From: a virus | Strand: one strand, 5' to 3' | DNA: 46,632 nt | IMG/VR virus record: IMGVR_UViG_3300050019_000128 | Coordinates: 1-46,632 of that record | Shown here: positions 8,122-46,279 of the stretch, one piece after another | Layout: every line of letters starts with the position of its first letter | Numbering within the stretch: the stretch's first letter is position 1 | Notes under the pieces: model-generated | Told to the model about the DNA's origin: nothing | What the model saw: only the letters and a program-made list of their open reading frames with translations | The model's database searches: none | Position numbers and translations under genes: made by a program

Positions 8122-9666
8122 TTGGTTATTGCAGCGGCAAGTGTCTGGGAACTTCGCCCAACCAATGGAGCCGATTCCAACGGAGGATTCTACGTCGCTG
8201 GGTCTGGCACTACGGACTACTCTCAGCAGAACTCAGCGCAGGCCAGTGGCACCGATTTGGTCACCGGCACGGGAACGCAAGTAACTTCAGTATCAGCTTT
8301 GTTTACTGCCGCTATGGTTGGTAATGGCATGTGGATTCAGGGAGGAACGGGCTCGCTTACGGCAGACTACTATCAAATTACTGGATTCACCAACTCCACC
8401 ACTATCAACGTTGACAAATCACCTGCCGCTGGCACCGGGGCAAGCTGGAACGTCGGCGGCGCGATAAAGAATATAATCACGCTTGCTGCGAAGATGATCG
8501 GATCGAATAAGGCTTTCGTGAAGGCTGAGGCGACGATAACGACGACGGCAACGCTAACGTTTGTAGCGGCAGCGGTAACTCCAAGCGCTACAGTCCCTTC
8601 AACTCACTTAATTGGCTACACGACAACTCGTGGCGACGGTGGACAGGTTTCCTTAACACTTTCAACTAACACCGGCATCACCGCCATGAAGTTCAGTGCA
8701 GGCGGCTGGACTGTTGAGGGCTTCAACATAAATTGTTCGTCGCTTGCAACGTCGATAGGGGTAGACTGGAATTCCGGCAACTTGAACATCCTCCGCAATT
8801 GCAAGATAGCAAACTTCGCAAGCATGGGTATCAAGTACCAGCTCTCAAGTTCTTTGGAAGTGTCGTTCTGCGAAATCACAGGTGGCACTGGCGGCACAGG
8901 AGCAATTGACGGTAACTCCTCTAGCGGCCTAACTCTTATCGGAAATTGGATTCATGATAATGCCTGCCCCGGGGTCGGAGTCAATCCAATTGGTAGCAAG
9001 ATAATTGGCAATGTTATATCAAACAACAGTGGCGGGTCATCTGACGGACTAGCTATCAATGGCGGCGCCGCAAGCGGGTTTGCGGTTATTTGGGGAAATT
9101 CCATATACAAGAATGGTCGGCACGGAATATTGTTCTCGTCAGGTATTCCGCCGTTCATGAGAAACAACATCATCACCGATCACACTGCCGGCAGTGCCGC
9201 TGGTATAAAGTGCAGTACCGCAGCTCTCCCCGCCGATCCGAGATACGATGGCAACTTCTTCTACAACAACACGATTGACCGGGTGAACCTGGATGACTAC
9301 GGTACATCCACAAGTTCCGGAGCGTACAGCGCAACGCTTTCTTCAGGCATCGTAGTTAGCGGCTCGAATACAAACGCCGTTAATGTTGCAACGCCTTATG
9401 TGAGTGCGTTCGACGTAAAACTAACGGCCACGCCGTGGAACAACGCTGGCAGCAACGATTTTACGCTGAACACCACGGCGGGTGGCGGGGCGGCTGTCCG
9501 TGGCAAAGGCCAGCCAGGTGTAGGCGGAACGCTTTTCAGCGGGATACCTGGACTCACCACGCTGAATGGGTATCTCGACGGTGGGGTGTTTCAGCATCAG
9601 GACCCAGCGGGCGGCTCAGGACCGCCCAACCAAGTAACCGGGGCAAGATCAATAGGAACGTACTAA
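8122..9666 (+). CDS. tail spike with right-handed parallel beta-helix
   Basis: A 514-residue protein. The start is TTG 8122, chosen because a strong AGGAGTGAG site sits immediately upstream. Residues about 195-330 show stacked short repeats (NCKIANFASMGIKY, SFCEITGGTGGTGAIDG, NWIHDNACPGVG, NVISNNSGG, NSIYKNGRHGI, NNIITDHTAG). This is the pattern of pectate-lyase-like beta-helices in tail spikes that bind or cut surface polysaccharide. The N-terminal 100 residues are probably the stem and neck. Catalytic residues cannot be assigned, so it may bind only. Confidence 0.7.
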   Translation: MVIAAASVWELRPTNGADSNGGFYVAGSGTTDYSQQNSAQASGTDLVTGTGTQVTSVSALFTAAMVGNGMWIQGGTGSLTADYYQITGFTNSTTINVDKSPAAGTGASWNVGGAIKNIITLAAKMIGSNKAFVKAEATITTTATLTFVAAAVTPSATVPSTHLIGYTTTRGDGGQVSLTLSTNTGITAMKFSAGGWTVEGFNINCSSLATSIGVDWNSGNLNILRNCKIANFASMGIKYQLSSSLEVSFCEITGGTGGTGAIDGNSSSGLTLIGNWIHDNACPGVGVNPIGSKIIGNVISNNSGGSSDGLAINGGAASGFAVIWGNSIYKNGRHGILFSSGIPPFMRNNIITDHTAGSAAGIKCSTAALPADPRYDGNFFYNNTIDRVNLDDYGTSTSSGAYSATLSSGIVVSGSNTNAVNVATPYVSAFDVKLTATPWNNAGSNDFTLNTTAGGGAAVRGKGQPGVGGTLFSGIPGLTTLNGYLDGGVFQHQDPAGGSGPPNQVTGARSIGTY

Positions 9667-10213: not shown

Positions 10214-11731
10214 ATGGCGATCCTCGGCAGGCGGCAACCGTTCAAGCCGCAAATAATCAACCCGTTTGCCGGGGCTCAACCATCGGTCAACCGACTCGTC
10301 AAAATAGCGCCTGTCTCGCAGCGAGCGAGCAGGCGCCATTCCTTTCATACCCAAGTCATCAGTTCGATCAGGCCAACCGCCTGGGTTTATATCCAGTCGG
10401 CCAGCCAAGGGTTCGGCCAGTCCGTCTCGGCCCGGACCGTGGCTCTCCCTGGCAACTCGACCATTGGTGACTTGATCGTCGTCTTCGCCGATTGGTTCAA
10501 CACGGGCACGATCGCGATTACGGACACCCTGGGCAATACGTATACGCAGGTCGGCACAACGCAATCTGTAGCGGACGGCACGCTCGGGGCCTTCTACTTC
10601 ACCGTCTCCAAGGGCTCGGGGGCGAACAGCATCACCCTAACGCCGACCGGGAATGTTTACACCGGTCTGGCTATCGCCGAGTACCGGAACGCTAATCCAG
10701 GTAAGCCAGCCGTTGATGGGTTCTCGACGAACGATGTCAACAATACCACGACATTTGCCACGGGCTCGATCCCGGTCAACTTCCCCGGCGACCTGGTTGT
10801 TGGCACCTTCGGCCAGGCGGCCACGATCTCCTACACTCCTGGGGCTGGCTGGAACCTGCGCGAAGCGCAATTGACCGGCACGACGCAGTTGTCGGTCATT
10901 CTCCAGGATGAACTATCGGTCAGTTCGGCTATCAATTCTGTCGGCACGTCAACTGTAAGCACCGATGTCATCGGGATAGGTGTCAGCTTCTACCTTGCCA
11001 ATCCGCAGATTGGAAAGGCAACGATCAAGTCCCAGGTCGTTGAAATAGCCAGTCGGCAGCCTCGGTTCCGCTCGCAGGTCATCAACCAGATCAAGAACTA
11101 CCCGGCGCCAGTGGTCACGGGGCCGGTCGGGATAGTCGTCAAGGTTACCCTTCAGTCGAGGCTTGCCGGCCGGCCGAGGACCAAGACGACAGTTCACGAC
11201 CAGTTGGCAATCTCGAACAGGCAACCGTCGAAGGCGAAACTGACCTTCACGAACTTCGCGGGGATGCACCCTGGGCGCCCGGTCACGCGCAACCGGATCA
11301 CGAACCAGTTTGCCACGCGGTATGTCCCGCCGGTTGCGGCTGTTCTGAAGAGGGTTGTGCGGGCAACGTTCGTCGCCGACTTCTTCCCAGGGCGCCCGCA
11401 GACCAAGATCGAAGTCATCAACCAGTTGGCCAAGAGTTATCCGCAACCCTTGGTCAAACTCCTGGCCAGGAACATCCCGCTTATCGTGCGGATACCTTCC
11501 TCGGATCAGCGGATCAGGCGGTTCAGCGAAGTGGTGGCGAACATCGTGGACTCTTTGGCCGGTCAGGGCATCCTTGTGCAGACGGGGCCGGAGGATTACA
11601 CGCTCGCCATTCCCTTCCAGCCGTTGCAGTTGGATAATGTGCTGATAGCGAACAACACGGTCTTCTTCTCGACAACGCTTGGGAAGCTGGCGTACAAAGA
11701 CTCTTCGGGAGTTGTTCACCCCCTTTATTGA
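10214..11731 (+). CDS. modular tail/virion protein with adhesion-like domain and basic repeats
   Basis: A 505-residue protein. Residues about 55-260 form a beta-sandwich-like domain (TIGDLIVVFADWF, ITDTLGNTYTQVG, GLAIAEYRN) with the same motif order as the C-terminal domain of the 3512 gene. Flanking it are at least five to seven copies of a short Arg/Pro-led motif ending in an [IV]x[ND]Q-type tail, for example RRQPFKPQIINPF, RQPRFRSQVINQI, GRPVTRNRITNQF and GRPQTKIEVINQL. The C-terminal 70 residues (DYTLAIPFQPLQLDNVLI...) look like a separate small domain. The repeats may bind capsid, tail or DNA. No enzyme motif is visible. Confidence 0.55.
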   Translation: MAILGRRQPFKPQIINPFAGAQPSVNRLVKIAPVSQRASRRHSFHTQVISSIRPTAWVYIQSASQGFGQSVSARTVALPGNSTIGDLIVVFADWFNTGTIAITDTLGNTYTQVGTTQSVADGTLGAFYFTVSKGSGANSITLTPTGNVYTGLAIAEYRNANPGKPAVDGFSTNDVNNTTTFATGSIPVNFPGDLVVGTFGQAATISYTPGAGWNLREAQLTGTTQLSVILQDELSVSSAINSVGTSTVSTDVIGIGVSFYLANPQIGKATIKSQVVEIASRQPRFRSQVINQIKNYPAPVVTGPVGIVVKVTLQSRLAGRPRTKTTVHDQLAISNRQPSKAKLTFTNFAGMHPGRPVTRNRITNQFATRYVPPVAAVLKRVVRATFVADFFPGRPQTKIEVINQLAKSYPQPLVKLLARNIPLIVRIPSSDQRIRRFSEVVANIVDSLAGQGILVQTGPEDYTLAIPFQPLQLDNVLIANNTVFFSTTLGKLAYKDSSGVVHPLY

Positions 11732-11738
11732 GGTCATC

Positions 11739-11954
11739 ATGCACGAAGAAAAGTCTCCTATTGTCGTTCACGAACTTGACCAGCGACGGGCCGCTTTTAG
11801 AGCATTAGCTCACAAAATGGGTCGCGAAAACATGGTTAAAACAATCCACGCATTTCGCAATTGGATTGCGACGGGAGACTTTTCCAAACTGACTGAAGAC
11901 GATGTAATGCTGGTAGCACTGGGATTTGAACTTTCCGTTCATGAGGTTTGGTAA
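11739..11954 (+). CDS. small phage protein, paralogue of the 44353 product
   Basis: A 71-residue protein. ATG 11739 is chosen over the upstream frame start because GAGG precedes it. The C-terminal half (FRNWIATGDFSKLTEDDVMLVALGFE) lines up with FRKAIKTRDFSGLTDKQLTTIIDGFE of the small gene after the capsid gene, so the two are likely duplicates. It is probably all helical. Its last codons overlap the next start (TAATG). The function is unknown. Confidence 0.6.
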   Translation: MHEEKSPIVVHELDQRRAAFRALAHKMGRENMVKTIHAFRNWIATGDFSKLTEDDVMLVALGFELSVHEVW

Positions 11955-13534
11955 TGCCGATCACATTTGAACAAGCCGGCCCTTACGACAAGTCAATCTC
12001 CGAAGCTTATGGCAGCGCCCAGGCGATGAAGGACTTCCTGCCCTTCCTTCAAAAGTCCTACGGTGGCCGAGGCGGCGGCGGCGGTAGCACGATGGGCGGC
12101 GGACCTGGAGGCTCACGCGGCGGGGGTGGTGGCGGTGATGACGGCATTTCCGGGGGCGGCCGCTCCGACCCTTATCAGGACCGGGTAAATGCCGAACAAG
12201 CGTTCCGCAACCAGCAAGTCGCCGCTGTAAACCGGATGACGGTCGATCCGAACCAGTACGACAGCGACATTTCCGCCCTCCAGGATAGACAGGCCGGCGA
12301 TGCGGCGACAGACGACGCTGCCTGGCAGAGGGGAGATCAGGCAGCTCCGGATACTGTTGAACCATCGGACATGACCGACCAGCAATGGCAGCAAGCCGGC
12401 GGGGCCGCGGGCGTAAACCCTCAAGATCAATCTCAAACGCCCCAAGCGCCTCCGCGGCCTCCTCCCGAATTTACGCAGGCTGATGGGTTGCAGCTCTCAC
12501 GCCTTCAGGCCAGCAAGGCTGAAGTGCAGGCCCAATTGCGGAATGGGATGCTTGATCCAGGGACGGCGCGGCGGATGATCTCACAGATTCAGACCGGGAT
12601 AGACCCGATGAGGATGGCGCAACAAGCGGCAGCTACGCAGGGTCAGCAGGAGCAAACTCGGCAACTCCAAGATCAGAACGCCCGGCGAACTTCCATGCTT
12701 GGTATGGACGCTGAACACTTTGCCCAGATGGGACAGAGAAACACATTCACCACTCAAGGCGGCCATGAAATTTATGTCAGCCCAATCGACGGGCATCCTA
12801 CCAACCTCGGCAATCCAAGACAGGACGCCGCGGAGAATAGACAGCAGACTCAGCAGCAAGCAGCCGAGTCCGAAAGGCACGATCATGAAGGATTCACCAA
12901 AGCCTTAACCGAAGTCGAGAAGTCTGTTCTTGGTGTCAATCCAACGGCAGCGCCTACCGATGCTCAAAGGGAGCAAATCGATGAGGCGATGCGGCGCCGT
13001 GGCTATCATTCCGGCAATTATGGCACACACCTTACTGCTCGCCAGGACAATCAGCGTAGCGAACGAATAGCGGCTCAGGTCAGCAGCCAAATGGAGCAAG
13101 AAGCTCGTGGAACGAATCGCCCAGCTTGGGCAAGCTCTCCGGAAGCAAGACAAGAGGAAGCATGGAACCGAACCGAAGCTCGCAGGCGTGAAGCCGGTAT
13201 CCGGGGGGCGGCGCCAGCTCCCGAGCCGGTTCCAGCCAATCTAGCAGACGCCCCTGAACATCAACGAGTCGCCATGGGCCGGTTCAATGAAATAAGGCGG
13301 CGCCTGGATGAGGAAGGTTACGCGGGGGAGAAATTCAACCGTGCGATGAGCCTCTATCGGAAATACGGCAGCTCGGATGCGATGCCTCCCCAACAACGGG
13401 CTTTCTACAGAGAAATCATCGGGCAAATGGATAGAGCGTATGGACCTCAGATTGCTCCTCCGTCATCGCCTCCGCCTTCTCAATCAGGACTCGGCCCACG
13501 GTCACAAATTCTAGTCGATAATCCTGGGAGCTAA
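11954..13534 (+). CDS. Gln/Gly/Arg-rich internal virion protein
   Basis: A 526-residue protein from ATG 11954, which overlaps the preceding stop. A Gly-rich stretch at about residues 35-65 (GGRGGGGGST...GGGGGG) is followed by Gln-rich disordered and helical segments with QTQQQAAESERHDHEGF. The low-complexity hydrophilic composition and the place immediately before the giant protein fit an internal core or ejection protein. A half-element-like TCATGAAGGATT occurs at about 12882-12895. No enzyme motif is visible. Confidence 0.55.
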   Translation: MPITFEQAGPYDKSISEAYGSAQAMKDFLPFLQKSYGGRGGGGGSTMGGGPGGSRGGGGGGDDGISGGGRSDPYQDRVNAEQAFRNQQVAAVNRMTVDPNQYDSDISALQDRQAGDAATDDAAWQRGDQAAPDTVEPSDMTDQQWQQAGGAAGVNPQDQSQTPQAPPRPPPEFTQADGLQLSRLQASKAEVQAQLRNGMLDPGTARRMISQIQTGIDPMRMAQQAAATQGQQEQTRQLQDQNARRTSMLGMDAEHFAQMGQRNTFTTQGGHEIYVSPIDGHPTNLGNPRQDAAENRQQTQQQAAESERHDHEGFTKALTEVEKSVLGVNPTAAPTDAQREQIDEAMRRRGYHSGNYGTHLTARQDNQRSERIAAQVSSQMEQEARGTNRPAWASSPEARQEEAWNRTEARRREAGIRGAAPAPEPVPANLADAPEHQRVAMGRFNEIRRRLDEEGYAGEKFNRAMSLYRKYGSSDAMPPQQRAFYREIIGQMDRAYGPQIAPPSSPPPSQSGLGPRSQILVDNPGS

Positions 13535-13535
13535 A

Positions 13536-16500
13536 GTGGCTGACTCACTCTTAGAAATGACGGAACGGCCTCCCGAACAGGAGCAATCCCAGCAATCAAG
13601 CCCTTTGCTGGACCTTACCGCAAGTCCCGGAGGCGACGTTCAGCGCTATCAAGGCGAGACTGAGATTCGCGACTGGCACGCTCGCGTTGCCGACTCGCAG
13701 GAGCAAACTGGCTCATGGCTCGGCCGGCACGTCAACCCTCTCCTTCCAATCAAGAACGATGCTCTTTACGGCAGGGCAATGGAGCGGCGCCGACAGGGCA
13801 GGCTTGAATCCGGTGATGCCGAACTTATCGCCACACAGGACAGACTTCGCCAGTTGGACGAAGGGGCCGGCACGGGGGAAAAGATTGCCGCTGGGATCGC
13901 AGGCATACCGGCCCTAGTCGTCGAGGGGTACACAGGCGGACGTCTCCTTCGAGGGGCCGGCATGGCTTTGGGCGGCCTGACCGGTGAAGCGGCGGCTGCC
14001 GGCGGCGTTCAAGCTGCTGGGATGGGCGCAAGATTTGGAACCGCGCTAATCGGCGAAGCCGGTGGGGGAGGTTTGGCCGCTCGCGCGGGTGGCGTTGCTC
14101 TCCGGGGAAGTCTCTCGGCTCCGTTCATGCCCAGCCTTTATGGTCGAGATGCAATCCACAACAATATCGAAGCCGGGCGAGACCCGCTTGACCTCCGGGG
14201 CGTGCCTAGCGCCCTGGGCCTAGCGATGGTGCAAAATACCGTCCTAGGATCACTCGGCCACTATGCGGAGGGAGTTGGCCGCGGCGTTCCTGGATTCGTT
14301 GCTCGGCAAGGCATACGGGCCGGGGCAGGCATCCTCGAACAGCAAGCCGCTGACATCGTAACCTCTGCCGTTGGCCTGAATACAGGCTATGGGCTCATTG
14401 GGGACATGCTGAACGGCCACGGCGACCGGGCACTTTCGAACCTTGCCGTCCAGGCGGCCACGTTTGCCGCTTTCGGGGGCGTTCATGAGGCTCAACATGC
14501 CGGCGGGACGCCCGACACAAGCCGTATTCGTGGGGAAAGAGAGTATGGCAGGGAAGCGGAGCGGGAACCAGTCTTCTCAGCTTTCCAAGACGCGCTCGGA
14601 ACACTTCGGCGCCGTGGAATGAGCGAAGAAGCTGCCGGGAAGGAATTGAATCCTTCATTTGAAGGAATTAACCGCGCTCTTGCCAAGAATCCCGATCTAA
14701 GTCGAGAACAGGCAAGGCAAATCGCCGACAAGATGCCTGAAGGGCCTCGGCGGAGCATGGCAAGGGCCCTGGCAGACGAATTGCCGTCCAAAATCCCGCC
14801 AATCGAGCACGCTTCGGCTATGGGGCCGGAAACAGGCAACGAACCATACCTCCAGAACGCTCCAGGACATTCCCAGACCGCTCCGACCGCCCCGGAGGCA
14901 CAAACACCCGTCAAACCGGCTCCGGAAGCGGCAGCGGGGCAGCGTTGGCAGAATACCGGCACTCAATTCCGTGACATACCTGGCAAACCCATCGAATTTA
15001 CCGGGTCTGACGGCAAAACGTACCATATCCAGCATTTAAGGGACGTAGGAGTCCTGGATCATCGTGTTGCCATCCTCAATGAAAAAGGCGCCGAAGTAGC
15101 GCACGCAGGGTTCAACAAGAATGCTGTCGGCACCTATTCGGGCCATGTGTCAAACAAGGGCGGTCCAAAGGGAATGGGCAGGGCACTTTACGACTATGCC
15201 CACACCACGATAGGCGACCTCAAGAAGTCCGAAGCTACGGTTGCCGGCCAGAAGGTAGGGCTACAGACCAAGGAAGGCGATGCAATGTGGGCGAGGAACG
15301 CAAAGCAGGGAAAACCACCTGATACGTCAAATGAAGGTTTAGTGCCGCAACCTGCTAAACCTCCAGAGGTTGCACGCGCTCTTGTCGAAAATGTCCGCGG
15401 AGTAGCCAAGCAGCTCGGTATCGACGCCAGAGGTACGCAAGACGCGATTGAAGAAAGAATCCGTAAGGCCGGTGGACAAGGATTCCTGGATGCCTTGACG
15501 GTCGGGTCTAATCCAACAGACGCTCCGGCCCTTAAAGAGGCCGGTTCATCGGTGGAAGAAGTGAAACGGCTACCCATGGAGATCAACCATGAAATCGAAA
15601 AGTTATCCGCCAGTACAGGCCGGAGCGCGGCATCCATTCAACGTGAAATCCACCGCGGCCTATCAGAAGAGTCTTCGGTTCTTGAAGCTAATGCTCCGGG
15701 TCAAGGAAGCCCGCCAGGTCAACCTGGCCCGAGTGAAGGGCCAGCCGGCCTACATCGGCCCGGCACCGAAGCTGAGCGGGGCGCCGGTCCACCTTCCCCA
15801 GCCAACAGCGGTCAAGCCGGTGGTGACGTCGTAGTTGCCCATTCCAAGGAAAGCCCCAACAGAATGCAGTTGAGAGTCGGAGGTCAAAGCAAAGGAGAAA
15901 TCTCCTTCGGGAACAAGGGAGGAGAGGATGCGGTTGCCCGTCGAATGTTTCCTGGAATTGTTCAGGAAGGCCAGAGGGTTTCCCGCATTCACGGGATTGA
16001 TGTCGACGCGGCAGAGCGCGGCAAGGGCATGGGGCAAGTCCTTTACCTCGAAGGCATGGCGTCCCACGGGGCAGACTGGTATTACAACAGCCAGGCAGAG
16101 CCGGGCGCCACAAACGCTCTCAAGTCTCTCGCCTCCAAGGGGCTTATTGAGCTGCACTGGAAAGGTCCGGAACCAAGCTGGAATAGTGAAGGCGGCGTTC
16201 ACATTGTTCGACCGACAGAATCCGGCGTGGCTGAAATAGCCAATCGCAAAAGTCCGCAAGGCGACTTCCTGACCCAGGCCGCGCATCCTCCCGAACAGCC
16301 CAACAGCCTCTTCCATACTGGCAACCAAGGGCAGATTGTCAGGGGGATGCCGGAAGCTCCGTCCGCACCACTCTATGAGCCGAACAAGCTCAATCTCACC
16401 CCGGAACAAACGGAATGGGGTCAACATGCCGTCGACGGGGGGCTCGACCCCCATCGCCTGCACGCGGAGGCGGCGCAAATCCTACGCAACGACGCGCCAC

Positions 16501-19208: not shown

Positions 19209-19544
19209 TTACCCCTTATCCGCCTGTTGCTTTCTCCAACGCTCCTCGTCAGTGAGGCTCGGCGATTCGCGCGTTGCCAGGCCAAAGTAAACCCGGTCAC
19301 ACCCAGAGCACGCACCCGCCCAAACGTAAAGGTCCTTCCCCGTCCGCGGAATGCGGATCACTCCTACGTCATTTAGATCGACGTGTCTGATTGGAAGCAA
19401 TCTGAGCGGTGTATTTTCGTGACCGCAATAACAAACCGTCACGACATGCCGGCGGTCATAGTGCCTGCCGATGGCAGCGCTAACCCATCGCTTCCCGAAC
19501 CCGAACCGCTTTATCAGCTCTATCCAGATCATCGTGAGCGGCAT
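19209..19544 (-). CDS. zinc-ribbon-like hypothetical protein
   Basis: A 111-residue protein, the last gene of the leftward operon. ATG 19544 overlaps the preceding stop (TGATG), which supports this start. CYCGHE in the middle and CSGCDRVYFG near the C-terminus give paired cysteines that could hold one zinc ion. The remainder is basic (GRHYDRRH). The function is unknown. Downstream, toward 19158, only a weak GGCA/TGCC hairpin precedes six T on this strand, so termination is unclear where the two operons converge. Confidence 0.6.
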   Translation of the reverse strand: MPLTMIWIELIKRFGFGKRWVSAAIGRHYDRRHVVTVCYCGHENTPLRLLPIRHVDLNDVGVIRIPRTGKDLYVWAGACSGCDRVYFGLATRESPSLTDEERWRKQQADKG

Positions 19545-19834
19545 CAGTCATCTTCTCCTTCCGCCAGTTCTTCCCAGTAGCGCCAATGTTCGTTGAAGAA
19601 TGATACGAAGGCTTGCAAAACCTTTTGGCCTTCTTGGGGAATCGTGCCTCCAAGAATCTCAAATGAGCATATAATTTTGGCAAGTCCGCTTGCTATATAT
19701 GACAATTCGTTGCGCCTTTGAGCTTGGTCAAATTCATCGTCTTCACCCTCGTTTCCTATGCTGTCCACTGCTGATACGCTACAGACTCTCCCGTCGTCAT
19801 CAGTGTGCTCCAAAGTTAATTTCCAACGGCTCAT
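19544..19834 (-). CDS. hypothetical acidic protein
   Basis: A 96-residue protein from ATG 19834 with GGGAG upstream. It is acidic (DDDGR, NEGEDDEFD, ELAEGEDD) with a helical central part (ASGLAKIICSFEILGG...). The family is not recognised. It is translationally coupled to the next gene by TGATG. It is the first gene after the 721-base gene-free structured region, and its ribosome site directly abuts a predicted H-type pseudoknot at 19846-19885. Confidence 0.6.
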   Translation of the reverse strand: MSRWKLTLEHTDDDGRVCSVSAVDSIGNEGEDDEFDQAQRRNELSYIASGLAKIICSFEILGGTIPQEGQKVLQAFVSFFNEHWRYWEELAEGEDD

Positions 19835-19845
19835 TTCTTTTCTCC

Positions 19846-19885
19846 CAAGGGCATTTCCCCGCGCCGCCCTTGCAAGGAGCGCGGG
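19846..19885 (-). promoter_or_regulatory. H-type pseudoknot abutting the ribosome site of the 19834 gene
   Basis: On the minus strand CCCGCGC (19885-19879) pairs with GCGCGGG (19864-19858). CAAGGGC (19872-19866), in that loop, pairs with GCCCTTG (19852-19846) just downstream. The two perfect 7-pair stems interlock as an H-type pseudoknot and end next to the GGGAG ribosome site. It could control translation of the 19834 gene or be one end of the larger structured RNA. Confidence 0.5.
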
Positions 19886-20502
19886 TCGTTAGTAGCGGGC
19901 AAGGGTGTCTCCATGTATTCCGGTCTTGCTGCGCTGCGCTTCGCAGACACCCTACGGGGTAGCATGAACCATCCCCCTTCCCCCTTCCAAGGTTTTTGGT
20001 TTGCGGATTCTTCGCCCATGGTTACGGTGGGAGTGTTCGATATTTCCGCCCAATGCCTGACCGCGGCTAAGCATCGAGGGGATTTACGACCTGAGTCCCG
20101 GACAAGTCCAGCCCCGTAACCACGGGAGAAGATTCCGTTGGTTTAGTTTGCGAAATAACTTTGGCTGGTTGCTCGCCGGTTGTCATCCCGGCTCCGGCGT
20201 TCACGGGAGTAGTCTCCCCCGCAAGTTACGGGTCCGTCGCCATGGGCTTCCCCATGCCGGCCTTGGTACAGGCTTTAGCAAAGCATCAGCAACCAACCAA
20301 AGATTTCGCCAGTCTACCGCGCCCATTACAGGCCACAAGGCCGCCGTTTGGCAGCTCCCGAGTGTTGCGGGACCGTCCTTTGTTTTTCGAGAGACCTACT
20401 ACTCTCGCCCCAAGACGTAAAAGGGGATTCGTTTGCGCGGTCACGAATGAGGGGTTGTCTTTGGCAGAAATGCCAGATAACATGCTCTCATCGTGGGCTT
20501 TG

Positions 20503-20541
20503 GGCCGCCAGTAACATTTCTCTGTGTGCTGGCGGCCTTTT
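20503..20541 (+). terminator. rho-independent terminator inside the leftward operon, rightward orientation
   Basis: GGCCGCCAG (20503-20511) pairs with CTGGCGGCC (20529-20537), followed by TTTT then C. There is no T-run on the other side, so it works only for a plus-strand transcript, although both neighbouring genes run leftward. It is the main evidence for a rightward transcript through 19.9-20.5 kb. Confidence 0.65.
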
Positions 20542-20555
20542 CACTTCTCAAGACT

Positions 20556-20843
20556 TTACTTCCCCGTCCAAGCTGCGTCAATAGGGACGAAGAACATCCA
20601 CCCGCCGTTGGGCTTGTAAATCCATCTCCCGCACGGCTTAATCCTGGAGGATGGCAGGAAGGCTCCCTTCCTGAACGCGGCGTCAAAAGCCTTCTTTGCT
20701 CCGAAGGTCCTCCTGATTATCGTCCAGGCTTGCTCCTTTGTTTCGTTGCCAACGAGCTGGAAGAGAAGGCGGAAACCTGGCGGGCAATGCTTCCCGAATG
20801 TGTTCTGGTCTGTAAAGTGAATGCCGTTGGTTTCTCCGGTCAT
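20556..20843 (-). CDS. hypothetical phage protein
   Basis: A 95-residue protein whose ATG overlaps the preceding nuclease stop (ATGA), so it is translated with it. The middle is basic (IIRRTFGAKKAFDAAFRKGAF) and the C-terminus holds an aromatic motif (CGRWIYKPNGGWMFFVP). No family is recognised. It is the last early gene before the structured gene-free region. Confidence 0.55.
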   Translation of the reverse strand: MTGETNGIHFTDQNTFGKHCPPGFRLLFQLVGNETKEQAWTIIRRTFGAKKAFDAAFRKGAFLPSSRIKPCGRWIYKPNGGWMFFVPIDAAWTGK

Positions 20844-33018: not shown

Positions 33019-33361
33019 GGCAACACGGGATCAGGTCCGCAAGTGGAAGGAGACACACCGGTTAAAGCCGAAGATGTTGCGGGATTACCAGTGGGTGTAC
33101 GAGCATCCGTTGGCAACTGAGGGTGAGGTAGTGACGCCAGTTCGGACGATGCTGCGGGGCCAGTTGTTGAAGGATGCCGGGAAATTTCTGGCGATGATGC
33201 AGCGGATGGAGGAGGAGCATCGAGTAGCGGTGGGGAAGAACCGGGCGGCGAGACTGGAGCGTGAGCGGGAGACGAGGACGGTGAACCGTGTTGATGATGA
33301 TGGGGGATTGGACTTGGTGGAAGAGTGGATTAATGAGCGGGAGAATCGGGCGGGTGCTTGA
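33017..33361 (+). CDS. possible small terminase subunit
   Basis: A 114-residue protein; GAGG lies about 10 bases before the ATG. It is basic and helical: RDQVRKWKETHRLKPKMLRD, MLRGQLLKDAGKFLAMMQRM, then KNRAARLERERETRTVNRV. It sits two genes upstream of the terminase large subunit. A DNA-recognition role in packaging is inferred from position, size and charge, not from a recognised domain. Confidence 0.4.
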   Translation: MATRDQVRKWKETHRLKPKMLRDYQWVYEHPLATEGEVVTPVRTMLRGQLLKDAGKFLAMMQRMEEEHRVAVGKNRAARLERERETRTVNRVDDDGGLDLVEEWINERENRAGA

Positions 33362-33542
33362 GGACTACTGGTGGCTTGCCCGGCAGTTGGAGATGTTGTG
33401 GGAGCAAGGCCAGGGCGAGAGCGAGTTGGCGGATGGGTTGCGGGGCAGGATGGACGGACCGTGGCGGGGGATGGTTCGGCGCGAGTGTTGGGAAGATTTG
33501 GAGGTCAAGCCAGATGTTATCGCCGGGCCAGTGGCATCTTAA
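33333..33542 (+). CDS. small hypothetical protein between terminase genes
   Basis: A 69-residue frame from ATG 33333; GTG 33354 after GGGAG is an alternative. VLEDYWWLARQLEMLWEQGQ, ADGLRGRMDGPWRGMV and WEDLEVKPDVIAGPV look like a true Trp-rich coding sequence, and the overlapping frame that extends the terminase upstream does not. It overlaps both neighbours. The function is unknown; a packaging accessory is possible. Confidence 0.5.
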   Translation: MSGRIGRVLEDYWWLARQLEMLWEQGQGESELADGLRGRMDGPWRGMVRRECWEDLEVKPDVIAGPVAS

Positions 33543-35340
33543 AGTCCCGACCGTGGAGATGGCGAACGTCAAGTACCGGCGGGACATCCGGGCGCGGGCG
33601 CTGGGGGACGTGAAGTTCCAGGCCGGGATCAAGCACATCTGCAAGAACGACATCATCTTTTTCATCAACGTGTTTGTGTGGCAGTACAACCCGAACAAGC
33701 TGGGGGACGAGGTTGGACCGTTCATCACCTGGGATTTTCAGGAGACATCGATCCTGAAGATGCTGGGGAATGTGGTGAGGCGGAAGGATATTTTGGTGGA
33801 GAAGAGTCGCGAGATGGGGGCGAGCTGGCTGATCTTGATTCTGTTTTTGTGGCTGTGGCTGTTCTGGCCGCGGCTGAAGTTTCTGTGCATGAGCAGGATG
33901 GAGGAGTTGGTTGAGTCGGACGATGAGGACAGTCTGTTTTGGAAGCTGGACTTCATGTTGGAGAGGTTGCCGGCGTGGCTGCGTCCCAAGATGAAGCGGC
34001 GGAAGAAATACTTTGGGAACCTGGAAAATGGATCGAGCATCACGGGAACGGCTACAACGGGCAAGGCTGGCGTGGGCGGTCGCGCAACTGCAATACTGCT
34101 TGACGAGTTTTCCCAAAACAAGGATGACTACGAAGTCTTGCACCGCACAAGCGATACTTCCAAGTGCCGAATTTTTAATGGAACGCATCTTGGCCTCGAC
34201 ACAGCGTTCTACGAATTGAGCCAGCGGGCGGACATGGATAAATTGGTGATGCATTGGACGGAGCACCCGGACAAAAGGAAGGGGATGTACCGCTATGACG
34301 CAGACGGAGGAAAAGTCGAAGTCCTCGACACGAGCTACGTTTACCCTGACGATTTCCGCTTCGTCATGGACGGGTCTCCTACGGGCGGCCCTTTGGCTGG
34401 TTTCCGCTCTCCCTGGTATGACGGTGAATGCATCCGGAAAGGGTCGTCGCGGGCAATCGCGATGGACCTGGACATTGACCCAAAAGGATCAGTCAGCCAA
34501 TTCTTCGACCGGCTCATGATTATGACGCTGGTTCGGTCCTACACCTGCGAGCCGTATTGGGAAGGGGAGTTGAACTACGATCGAAGCTCGGGGCGCTCTG
34601 GTCAGTTCGTTCCGCTCAAGGGCGGGGCAATGAAGCTGTGGCTCAGGCCGGACGGCACGGGGAAGCCGGCGCCGGGAATCTATGCCTTCGGGGTGGACGT
34701 GGCGACGGGGAATGGGGCAACGCCGTCGTGCATCGGCGGGTTCAATGCCATGACGGGGGAAAAGATTCTGGAGTATTCCAACTCGCACATTCTCCCGGAG
34801 AAGCTGGCCTACTTGCTGGTGGCGCTGTGCTGGCTATTCAAGAGCGAAGATGGTCAAGGGGCCATGCTGGGCTGGGAGACGCCTGGGCCTGGGCTGATGC
34901 TCGGGACGGTGATAATGAAGGACCTCGGCTATCGAAACGTGTACTACAACGCCAAGCAATACATCGGCGGGGAACCATCGGAAAGGCCGGGCTGGATCAA
35001 CAATCCAAGCAACCTTGAGCACCTATTGGAAGAGTACCGAGCCGGGCTGCATTCGAGGCAGTGTCTCAACCGGTCGAAGAAGTCACTGGAAGAATGCCTC
35101 GCTTTCGAGTATGACTCTAGAGGCGTGCCAAGTCACGGCAAGGCGACTTCGACGAACGATCCATCAGCGGCCAGGTTCAACCATGCCGACCAAGCAATTG
35201 CCGACGCCATTGGCTGGAAGTTGGTCAAGAGTCTCGGGGTCCAGCAGACGGTGAAGAAGGTCGAGCCGCCCCCCACGGTGTTAAGTCTTCAGGGCCGGCG
35301 TGATTGGCACAACCGGCGGGAACGAGAGGAGTTTGTCTGA
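33514..35340 (+). CDS. terL: terminase large subunit
   Basis: A 608-residue protein. ATG 33514 has a GGAGG site 9 bases upstream; the frame continues upstream only as an Arg/Trp-rich shadow. Residues 96-105 (EKSREMGASW) are the terminase-type variant Walker A, and ILLDEF (194-199) is Walker B. A GVDVATG segment and FNHADQAIADAIGW near the C-terminus fit the RNase H-like nuclease. It cuts and pumps DNA through the portal encoded next. Stop overlaps the next start (TGATG). Confidence 0.85.
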   Translation: MLSPGQWHLKVPTVEMANVKYRRDIRARALGDVKFQAGIKHICKNDIIFFINVFVWQYNPNKLGDEVGPFITWDFQETSILKMLGNVVRRKDILVEKSREMGASWLILILFLWLWLFWPRLKFLCMSRMEELVESDDEDSLFWKLDFMLERLPAWLRPKMKRRKKYFGNLENGSSITGTATTGKAGVGGRATAILLDEFSQNKDDYEVLHRTSDTSKCRIFNGTHLGLDTAFYELSQRADMDKLVMHWTEHPDKRKGMYRYDADGGKVEVLDTSYVYPDDFRFVMDGSPTGGPLAGFRSPWYDGECIRKGSSRAIAMDLDIDPKGSVSQFFDRLMIMTLVRSYTCEPYWEGELNYDRSSGRSGQFVPLKGGAMKLWLRPDGTGKPAPGIYAFGVDVATGNGATPSCIGGFNAMTGEKILEYSNSHILPEKLAYLLVALCWLFKSEDGQGAMLGWETPGPGLMLGTVIMKDLGYRNVYYNAKQYIGGEPSERPGWINNPSNLEHLLEEYRAGLHSRQCLNRSKKSLEECLAFEYDSRGVPSHGKATSTNDPSAARFNHADQAIADAIGWKLVKSLGVQQTVKKVEPPPTVLSLQGRRDWHNRREREEFV

Positions 35341-35567: not shown

Positions 35568-37406
35568 GTGGCTAACGACTTCGACATCGGCCGCCTCGCC
35601 CAGGCCATGCAGAACGCCCGGCTTGTCCTCCGCACCCCGCGCCAAAACCGTTTCGATATGGTCCGACAGTACGTGGGCCGCCGATGGAGCGAAGAGGGGT
35701 CTATCCAGACGGTCCCTTGCAACCTGCTCTCGGCCTACGTCGGCATCGTGGGTCGGAAGCTCATCGCCCACAACCCGCGGGTAATGCTCTCGACTTGGAA
35801 CCGATCGGCCAGGCCGGTTGTGACGGCCATGGAGACCTGGGCCAACCAAGAGATCGAGAGAATCAAGCTCCAGAACACTCTTCAAAGGATCGTCGTCGAT
35901 GCTCTTTTCTCAGTGGGTATCTGCAAGGTTGCGCTCGCAACGCCTGCCGATGCGGCGATTAGCGGATGGCGCTCCTCTGCCGGCCAGCCTGTGGCTGAAC
36001 GGGTGGATTTGGATGACCTTGTGTTCGACGTTCACGCCCGTGATTTCTCCGAGTGTGGGTTTATTGGACACCGTTTCCGGGCCCCTATGAGCGTTATCCG
36101 CAAGTCCAAGATTTACTCCCGCGACCGGAAGAACCTGGAGGTCGAGCCCGACCGCATCTACAACATGGAAGGTGATGAGCGGATTGGTCTGCTCGGCCGG
36201 ACAACGCTCGGCGGCGACCAAGAGGAATATGAGGACTTCGTTGACCTATGGGAAGTCTACTTGCCCCGCCACAAGGTAGTTCTGACTCTGAGGGACGACA
36301 ACCTGCTCGGCGCGAGTGGTGGCGACTCTGGCCCAGACCGGAACTATGGAAAGGCCCTGCGAATCCAGAAGTGGCTGGGACCGGACTCGGGGCCGTATCA
36401 CTTCCTGGGGTTCGGAGTGGTGCCGGGCAACCCGATGCCGAAAGCCCCCCTCCAGGACTTGTACGACCTGCACTTGTCGATCAATGCGATACTCCGGAAA
36501 ATCATCCGCCAATCTGAGCGGCAGAAGCAGGTCACCTTCATCCAGGGCGGCGCTGCCGAGGACGGCAGCCGGCTCATGGAATTGAACGACGGTGAGATAG
36601 GCCGCATCGACAACCCCGAGAAGATCAAGCAGGTCGACGTCGGCGGCCCGAACCAGCAGCTTTACATGATCTTCGAAGCGATGAAGACCCTCTTCTCTTG
36701 GCTGGCCGGCAACCTGGACGTGATGGGCGGCCTGTCTCCGCAGGGCGACACGGCGACCCAAGAAAAGCTACTCAATGCCAACTCGTCAGGCACCCTCTCG
36801 GAAATGCAGCAACGGACGGTCGAGTTCTCCGCGGATGTGGTGAAGTCCTTGACCTGGTATTGGCATCATCACCCGCAGACGGTCATGAAGTCCGAGTACC
36901 ACGCGCCTGGCCTGCACGGCATGAGTGTGACCAGAAGCATCCACCCGCCTGGCCGCGGCATCGGCCCGCGCGGCAAGAAGCGTCTCTCGCGCGACCACAA
37001 CTTCGACGACATGGACATCAAGGTGGATCCGTACTCGATGCAGGCCCAGACGCCGCAACAGCGGTTGCAAATGATGCAGCAGCTTGTCATGCAGGTCTAC
37101 CAGCCGATGGCACAGATTGCCCAGCAACAGGGCATCTCTCTGGACCTCAATGCCTTCTTCGAGAAGTGGGGCAAGTATGCGGACTTCCCCGACATTCAGG
37201 AGTTGCTTACCGTCCAGGAACCTCCGGAGCAGAAGGGAAGCTCGGGACCGTCAGATGATGCAGGTTCGGGCAAGCCTCCGGAAACGACGCGGAATTACAC
37301 GCGGCGGTCGATGGGCGCCCAGGGTCCGCAGAACCAAGTTCTGCAAATGTTGCAGGCCGGGGCCGGGCAGAAGAACGGGCAAACCTCAAACGGAATGGTG
37401 AAATGA
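35568..37406 (+). CDS. portal protein
   Basis: A 612-residue protein from GTG 35568; AGGA is rather distant upstream. It has features of podovirus-type portals: helical DIGRLAQAMQNARLVLRTPR N-terminus, a mixed domain, IGRIDNPEKIKQVDVGGPNQ, MKTLFSWLAGNLDVMGGLSP and QGDTATQEKLLNANSSGTLS. The C-terminus is Gln-rich and flexible. It lies between terminase and scaffold/capsid genes, as usual. It forms the DNA channel to which the adaptor and nozzle attach. Confidence 0.8.
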   Translation: MANDFDIGRLAQAMQNARLVLRTPRQNRFDMVRQYVGRRWSEEGSIQTVPCNLLSAYVGIVGRKLIAHNPRVMLSTWNRSARPVVTAMETWANQEIERIKLQNTLQRIVVDALFSVGICKVALATPADAAISGWRSSAGQPVAERVDLDDLVFDVHARDFSECGFIGHRFRAPMSVIRKSKIYSRDRKNLEVEPDRIYNMEGDERIGLLGRTTLGGDQEEYEDFVDLWEVYLPRHKVVLTLRDDNLLGASGGDSGPDRNYGKALRIQKWLGPDSGPYHFLGFGVVPGNPMPKAPLQDLYDLHLSINAILRKIIRQSERQKQVTFIQGGAAEDGSRLMELNDGEIGRIDNPEKIKQVDVGGPNQQLYMIFEAMKTLFSWLAGNLDVMGGLSPQGDTATQEKLLNANSSGTLSEMQQRTVEFSADVVKSLTWYWHHHPQTVMKSEYHAPGLHGMSVTRSIHPPGRGIGPRGKKRLSRDHNFDDMDIKVDPYSMQAQTPQQRLQMMQQLVMQVYQPMAQIAQQQGISLDLNAFFEKWGKYADFPDIQELLTVQEPPEQKGSSGPSDDAGSGKPPETTRNYTRRSMGAQGPQNQVLQMLQAGAGQKNGQTSNGMVK

Positions 37407-43305: not shown

Positions 43306-44349
43306 GTGGCCGTCATTCAAGCCGAAAATGTCCTGGACTTCGTGAACGATACCCTGAAAGACCTGGGCAAGCCCAAGTTCACGGACATCAGCTCGAACCT
43401 GCAACGCCATCCGGCGGTAAAGCAGCTCATGCGCAAGAACCGGGTTGTGCTCGAATCCGGCTCGGGGATTCAGTTTAACGTGCTGGTTGCCCAGAGCAAC
43501 GCCTTCCGCAACGTGGCCCTGGCCGAGTCGGATAACGTCAACCTGGTTGACGGTATGGTCCAGGCTTCCACCTTCTGGCGGAACTCGAACACGTCGTACA
43601 TGCTGATCGGCCAGCTCATGGCGATGAACCGGGAACCGGCCCGGATCGTCGATTACGTGAAGCAACAGCGAATCATGTCGCTCATCAGTTTCGCGGACGG
43701 CATGGAAACCAACTTTTGGAACGCGCCGCCCTCGACCGATACGAAAACCCCTCTTGGCCTGCCCTACTGGATCACCAAGAACGCCACGACGGGTTTCAAT
43801 GGCGGCACGCTCACCGGGTACACGAACGTCGCCGGCCTTTCGCCCACGACCTATCCCCAGTGGAACAACTGGACGGCAGGCTATACCGCAGTCAGCCGCG
43901 ATGACTTCATTCGCGGAGTCCGCAAAGCGGCGACCTTCACGAGTTTCATGCCGCCCACGGACGGCATCCCGACCCCGAACACTGGTGATGACTACGGGTT
44001 CTACACCAACTACTCCGTTCTCCAGCCCCTCGAAGAGTCGGCTGAATCGCAGAATGACAACCTCGGCCCTGACCTGGCGAGCCAAGACGGCAAAGTCATC
44101 ATGCGGCGCATACCCGTGATCTGGGTTCCCTGGCTCGAACGCGACACGACGAACCCCTTCTACGGGATCAACTGGGGTTGGTTCAAGACCTACGTGCTGC
44201 GCGGTTGGTGGTTCAAGGAGACGGCAATCCCGTACACGCCGGGACAACATACGGTCGCAAGTCACTTCATAGATTGGACCTACCAGTTCGTCTCTAAAAA
44301 CAGACGTTGCCACTTCGTTTTGAGCAACGGCACCACGTACCCGAGTTGA
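43306..44349 (+). CDS. major capsid protein
   Basis: A 347-residue protein from GTG 43306 with AAGGAAC upstream. It begins with an N-arm and helical FVNDTLKDLGKPKFTDISSN, then SGIQFNVLVAQSNAFRNVAL, and ends in a core rich in Trp and aromatic strands (IPVIWVPWLERDTTNPFYGI). Size and place after the scaffold make it the HK97-fold shell protein. The capsid family cannot be named from sequence alone. Confidence 0.8.
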   Translation: MAVIQAENVLDFVNDTLKDLGKPKFTDISSNLQRHPAVKQLMRKNRVVLESGSGIQFNVLVAQSNAFRNVALAESDNVNLVDGMVQASTFWRNSNTSYMLIGQLMAMNREPARIVDYVKQQRIMSLISFADGMETNFWNAPPSTDTKTPLGLPYWITKNATTGFNGGTLTGYTNVAGLSPTTYPQWNNWTAGYTAVSRDDFIRGVRKAATFTSFMPPTDGIPTPNTGDDYGFYTNYSVLQPLEESAESQNDNLGPDLASQDGKVIMRRIPVIWVPWLERDTTNPFYGINWGWFKTYVLRGWWFKETAIPYTPGQHTVASHFIDWTYQFVSKNRRCHFVLSNGTTYPS

Positions 44350-46111: not shown

Positions 46112-46279
46112 ATGCCAGCAAAATCGGAAGCCCAGCGAAAGCTTCTTAACGCCAAGTTTGGGCACGCCTGGGTCAAGAAACACCACTTCGACAACAAGGG
46201 CAAACTTCCAGCCCATGTTAAACCGAAGGCGAAAGCAAAACCCAAGGCCCGCAAGGCCAAGAAAAGGGGAAAACGATGA
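46112..46279 (+). CDS. small Lys/His-rich basic protein (55 residues)
   Basis: ATG 46112 follows GGAGCCGG. The product includes FGHAWVKKHHFDNKGKLPAH and a Lys/Ala/Arg tail (KPKAKAKPKARKAKKRGK). Strongly basic, likely DNA-binding, in the capsid operon. Stop overlaps the next start (ATGA). Confidence 0.65.
   Translation: MPAKSEAQRKLLNAKFGHAWVKKHHFDNKGKLPAHVKPKAKAKPKARKAKKRGKR

Follow-up and report, generated by a model that had tools for sequence, protein, structure and literature searches.

Genomic context of the 721-base interval

The virus record IMGVR_UViG_3300050019_000128 consists of 46,632 bases of G+C-rich DNA, which were analysed over their whole length and are referred to here as the window. 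Its late genes are carried by the plus strand and include the terminase (33358-35340), the portal (35568-37406), a probable capsid gene (43306-44349) and others up to 19157. The early genes occupy the minus strand between about 32,960 and 19,209, and their products include an ERF-type annealing protein, an exonuclease, a helicase, an HNH protein and a VRR-NUC protein. Near the end of this early cluster, positions 19835-20555 form the exact interval separating two minus-strand genes, an upstream one encoding 95 aa (20556-20843) and a downstream one encoding 96 aa (19544-19834). A preliminary description had designated these 721 bases as gene-free, and indeed no recognisable protein is encoded there: the interval is spanned only by overlapping ORFs of 62-117 aa without significant match in Pfam or PHROG, and the longest of these, a 117-aa ORF on the plus strand, had no relative among the phage records searched.

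Folding of the two strands

Both strands of the interval fold better than dinucleotide shuffles, the minus strand (-304.2 kcal/mol, z -6.15) more strongly than the plus strand (-292.6 kcal/mol, z -4.60), since G.U pairs of the minus strand turn into A.C mismatches on the plus strand. The interval is best read as a minus-strand RNA extending from about 20546 to 19900, the latter 3' end being a guess. When the early region was scanned in 250-nt windows, the lowest z scores were those of the windows starting at 20101, 19901 and 20301 (-5.68, -3.01 and -2.77, respectively), against a mean of -0.42 and a minimum of -2.47 for the 63 early-region windows outside the interval.

Two long-range stems dominate the minus-strand fold, with mean pair probabilities of about 0.95-0.99. 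P6 joins 20309-20288 to 20173-20150 through 22 pairs, with a two-base bulge and one G.U pair, and closes a domain at 20150-20309; P7 joins 20137-20112 to 20030-20004 through 24 pairs (mean probability 0.95) and forms a second long helix domain at 20004-20137. Both stems had been noticed previously and are longer than first described. The two-base bulge reported between 20150-20172 and 20289-20309 is present, whereas the accompanying mismatch is in fact the G.U pair of the minus strand. The earlier statement that such pairing is very unlikely by chance proved too strong for a single stem: a helix as strong as the long stem occurred in 2 of 400 shuffles and in 8 of 124 other 721-nt windows of the genome, so that folding alone would not settle whether an RNA is encoded. 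These other windows are what would speak for a chance structure in a G+C-rich spacer, a reading contradicted by the window z scores given above as well as by the homology, compensatory changes and shuffles described below, and which we consider extremely improbable.

A homologous region in a related phage

With the helicase protein as query, L002 was retrieved, which forms part of the record of a related phage (51,796 bases); the helicases of the two phages share 68% identity at the protein level and 69% at the DNA level. L002 carries a homologue of the proposed RNA at positions 12137-12470, downstream of relatives of the same genes. The RNA measures about 390 nt there, as compared to about 650 nt in the present phage, and folds as a whole with a z score of -3.39. 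Its positions 12240-12327 match 20435-20350 of our minus strand with 86% identity over 88 nt, and nhmmer assigned an E-value of about 1e-20 to the match, over a stretch longer than this conserved core (20350-20435, minus strand). Elsewhere, aligned segments of the two genomes have 65-76% identity, one small protein gene excepted, and inside coding genes only the best 88-base windows attain 85-88% identity.

The core contains two offset single-base indels, 20 bases apart, that break the reading frame, and its substitutions between the two phages hit all three frame positions; both features argue against a coding core. The comparably conserved other segment is a small protein gene without indels. 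With Pfam, PHROG, the phage records and the indels of the core all considered, no conserved protein was found across the region; such a protein had been named among the observations that would weigh against an RNA. At 46112-46276 of the window, a small basic protein gene shows 84-86% DNA identity between two related phages, most of the changes being silent, a conservation unusual for its size. A second stretch of 86% identity, at 46127-46220, proved on checking to be a small protein gene in which most changes are silent.

Recognisable elements of the core are the loops UUUUACGUCUU and UAGUARGU, the hairpin CGAGAG/CUCUCG and the sequence AAAGGACGGUYCCGC. A pseudoknot between CGUCUU and AGGACG is possible. 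The sequences of this pseudoknot and of helix H3 (CCCC/GGGG) are invariant in both phages and thus carry no covariation information, and H3 is not favoured thermodynamically in L002. One invariant loop in the core region carries the palindrome ACGU.

Helices maintained by compensatory changes

Covariation in homologues, whose absence had been named as evidence against a structured RNA, could be looked for in the one homologue found, L002, and compensatory changes were observed there. Helix H1 (20503-20537, minus strand; 20537-20529 with 20511-20503) has a pair probability of about 1 in both phages, and all nine of its pairs are intact in L002 with three of them changed on both sides. Helix H2, which encloses an inner hairpin (20442-20495, minus strand), likewise keeps 9/9 pairs of its outer part, six of them changed on both sides, its register and one bulged base having been placed by hand. 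H1 and H2 together display nine double compensatory changes and not a single broken pair in this comparison of two sequences. As a control independent of the register, the L002 flank was shuffled 20,000 times and helices of at least nine pairs at both places were scored: H1-like and H2-like helices were obtained singly in 129 and 260 shuffles and never together (0/20,000).

At the place matching P6, L002 contains a five-pair helix, GCAGC/GCUGC, with a pair probability of 0.96 and a sequence unlike that of the present phage, bounded by the same conserved words, ACUGGC before and AAACNAA after. By direct reading, three of these five L002 pairs are changed on both sides. No counterpart of P7 was found in L002, P7 thus being seen in this phage only. 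We do not claim helix P3 (ACCGCGC/GCGCGGU) as conserved, owing to mismatches in L002. On the strength of the homology, the nine double compensatory changes, the shuffles and the occurrence of P6 in both phages, we conclude that the interval very probably encodes a real, unclassified structured RNA belonging to a narrow phage lineage.

Promoter-like sites and neighbouring genes

A promoter-like site, TTGACG-17-TAAAGT, is located at 20553-20581 on the minus strand, predicts an RNA start at about 20546 and ends 15 bases before H1. Its L002 equivalent, TTGACA-18-TAGAAA (12108-12137), ends four bases before H1 and places the predicted transcript start at the very edge of this helix. The pattern TTGACR-N16-19-TANANW has a single match on both strands of the whole window, and the L002 pattern is matched only once in 15 kb; as both patterns were written after the sites had been seen, these counts are suggestive only. 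No terminator was found after the RNA in the present phage, and the RNA may therefore belong to a longer transcript. The upstream neighbour is the 95-aa protein gene here and a Mom-like gene in L002, and no similarity could be detected between the downstream genes of the two phages; that the neighbours differ on both sides favours a free-standing RNA and argues against the leader of one gene.

These observations bear on the possibility that the sequence is a cis-acting element of the early transcript, serving as a leader, in antitermination or stability, or to regulate the small genes downstream of it. Its position among successive genes of the same strand, the immediately following ribosome-binding site of the next gene (19834) and the lack of an intervening terminator would all suit such an element, whereas the unrelated genes after the RNA in the two phages, the few small genes that remain before the convergent late genes and the promoter-like site right ahead of the RNA do not. 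We regard a cis-acting role as unlikely, although it is the foremost of the alternatives, and consider that the minus strand from 20546 to about 19900 probably specifies a free-standing non-coding structured RNA with its own promoter.

In the opposite orientation (20503-20545, plus strand; L002:12142-12174, minus strand), H1 resembles an intrinsic terminator, being followed by TTTT here and by a T-rich stretch in both phages. Judging from this sequence, opposite-strand H1 could stop the convergent late transcript from reading through. An element acting at the DNA level might be envisaged, for instance an origin of replication or a packaging site containing inverted repeats, in which H1 would terminate convergent plus-strand late transcripts. 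The site does lie close to where early and late genes converge, and the T-rich stretch after H1 is shared by the two phages; however, the minus strand folds better than the plus strand because of its G.U pairs, and an inverted repeat in DNA would not be expected to have long conserved single-stranded loops. We find this explanation quite improbable.

A recurrent motif at helix ends

The motif GCAAACNAA occurs four times in the window (both strands, 93 kb), and three of these occurrences are inside the RNA on the sense strand, at 20436, 20151 and 20004, each at a predicted helix end. They correspond to the minus-strand sequences GCAAACGAA (20428-20436), GCAAACUAA at the end of P6 (20143-20151) and GCAAACCAA at the end of P7 (19996-20004), and are associated with the 5' strand of P3 and the 3' strands of P6 and P7. 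The L002 copy of the RNA contains CAAACGAA at 12240 and GCAAACCAA at 12432. A-rich strands following helices are typical docking strands, and we infer that the AAACNAA strands play this part here.

Distribution of the RNA

Further members of the family were sought with a covariance model (R1), which was applied to 56 records of related phages, many being fragments, and to all loci retrieved with DNA patterns, and by querying the viral collection for relatives with the helicase alone, a helicase alignment, the capsid and the terminase. The model recovered no third member in either set; the lack of a match in a fragmentary record is weak evidence. DNA patterns derived from the conserved core matched L002 only in the viral collection, and BLAST against phage and plasmid records gave no convincing match. 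Several candidates were discarded: 48 pattern matches in the genome collection were rejected by the covariance model and are due to chance, a match of the model in L011/L058 (E 0.003 under default filters, 0.02 once these were switched off) falls within protein-coding sequence, and weak matches in the related phage G008 share just one short helix or motif. Neither G008 nor another related phage, G005, has an equally strong structured region in its early part. Phages with 82% and 80% identical capsids have no detectable copy of the RNA, which indicates that it is not essential in this phage group.

Presence in two phages, absence from near relatives and dissimilar neighbours would also be compatible with a decayed intron or mobile element devoid of present function. 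Nevertheless, no Rfam intron or ribozyme matched, no associated enzyme gene was seen, and strong conservation together with compensatory change speaks for current selection, so that we give this origin very little credence. We consider the sequence to be, in all probability, a new, rare and lineage-restricted structured phage RNA, one that is probably free-standing. The finding suggests that rare large RNAs bound to a lineage escape covariation pipelines because they have too few relatives.

Comparison with known RNA families

None of the 4227 models of Rfam 15, self-splicing introns, RNase P, tmRNA and riboswitches included, provided a family match. No model, GOLLD and ROOL among them, reached its gathering score in the window, and at E-values up to 5 the region and L002 gave chance matches only, none of them to GOLLD or ROOL. 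The suspicion that the RNA is new, voiced on failure to assign it to a family, is consistent with this result, and it probably represents a new family. The initial reading as a large phage RNA holds in that the sequence is conserved, structured and apparently non-coding, the strand, left unstated at first, being the minus strand; the suggested kinship with GOLLD or ROOL finds no support, and the homologue reaches only about 390 nt.

To our knowledge, few large structured phage RNAs have been described. In lambdoid phages, put-type antiterminator RNAs comprise two hairpins in succession close to where a phage transcript begins. Consecutive hairpins are also found near the predicted transcript start here, although this RNA is much larger and lies near the end of the early cluster, not at its start; the comparison is one of description. 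OLE RNA resembles it in length (about 600 nt), ornate structure and conserved unpaired stretches, but is bacterial, has partner proteins and its model gives no match. With GOLLD it has in common a large and elaborate fold in a phage, long closing helices and conserved single-stranded stretches; it differs in lacking a match to the model and an internal tRNA, and in its L002 version of about 390 nt. ROOL is likewise a large non-coding RNA of phages and prophages, from which it is set apart by the Rfam result and by the smaller size of its homologue. GOLLD and ROOL form RNA-only cages of 14 and 8 subunits, respectively, and the functions of these two RNAs are still poorly understood (PMC12286853).

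Possible mode of action

Transcription would start at a promoter belonging to the RNA itself, towards the end of the early cluster on the minus strand, and produce a conserved 5' domain made of H1, H2 and the nearly invariant core, followed by the domain closed by P6. Once transcribed, the RNA would act in trans as a folded molecule, with the AAACNAA strands and the invariant loops, including the one with ACGU, as putative sites of docking, be it inside one molecule, from copy to copy or with a host protein. Its role may be guessed to be help in host takeover or protection during infection. It is conceivable, if rather doubtful, that this would be a new class of trans-acting phage RNA assembling an RNA-only particle through repeated docking strands, each a helix with AAACNAA, and a kissing loop at ACGU. 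That such a particle would be like GOLLD and ROOL in kind, unrelated to both and used during infection is an equally speculative proposal. Another family, unrelated to these two and offering both a natural version of about 390 nt and an invariant core of a size suited to probing, would be of use in asking whether large phage RNAs share a mechanism or merely a size.

Other structured elements in the related phage

L002 also contains an over-stable segment at 13501-13750 (z -4.07), after the last early genes and adjoining the convergent late genes. A tRNA-like sequence was noticed at approximately L002:3085-3175 (GCCCGCC...GGTTCGAATCC...GGCGGGC), where ARAGORN finds none. Two Mom-like DNA-modification genes are located at L002:8739-9350 and 11430-12134 (Pfam Mom, E about 1e-12), and two tRNA-like elements, at 8788-8859 and 11354-11472, directly precede or overlap them. 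Both elements have the T-loop GGTTCGAYTCC and a 7-pair acceptor stem; they score 23.5 and 27.2 bits with the Rfam tRNA-Sec model, below its cut-off, and ARAGORN calls no tRNA at either. This pairing of Mom-like genes with tRNA-like RNAs merits study.
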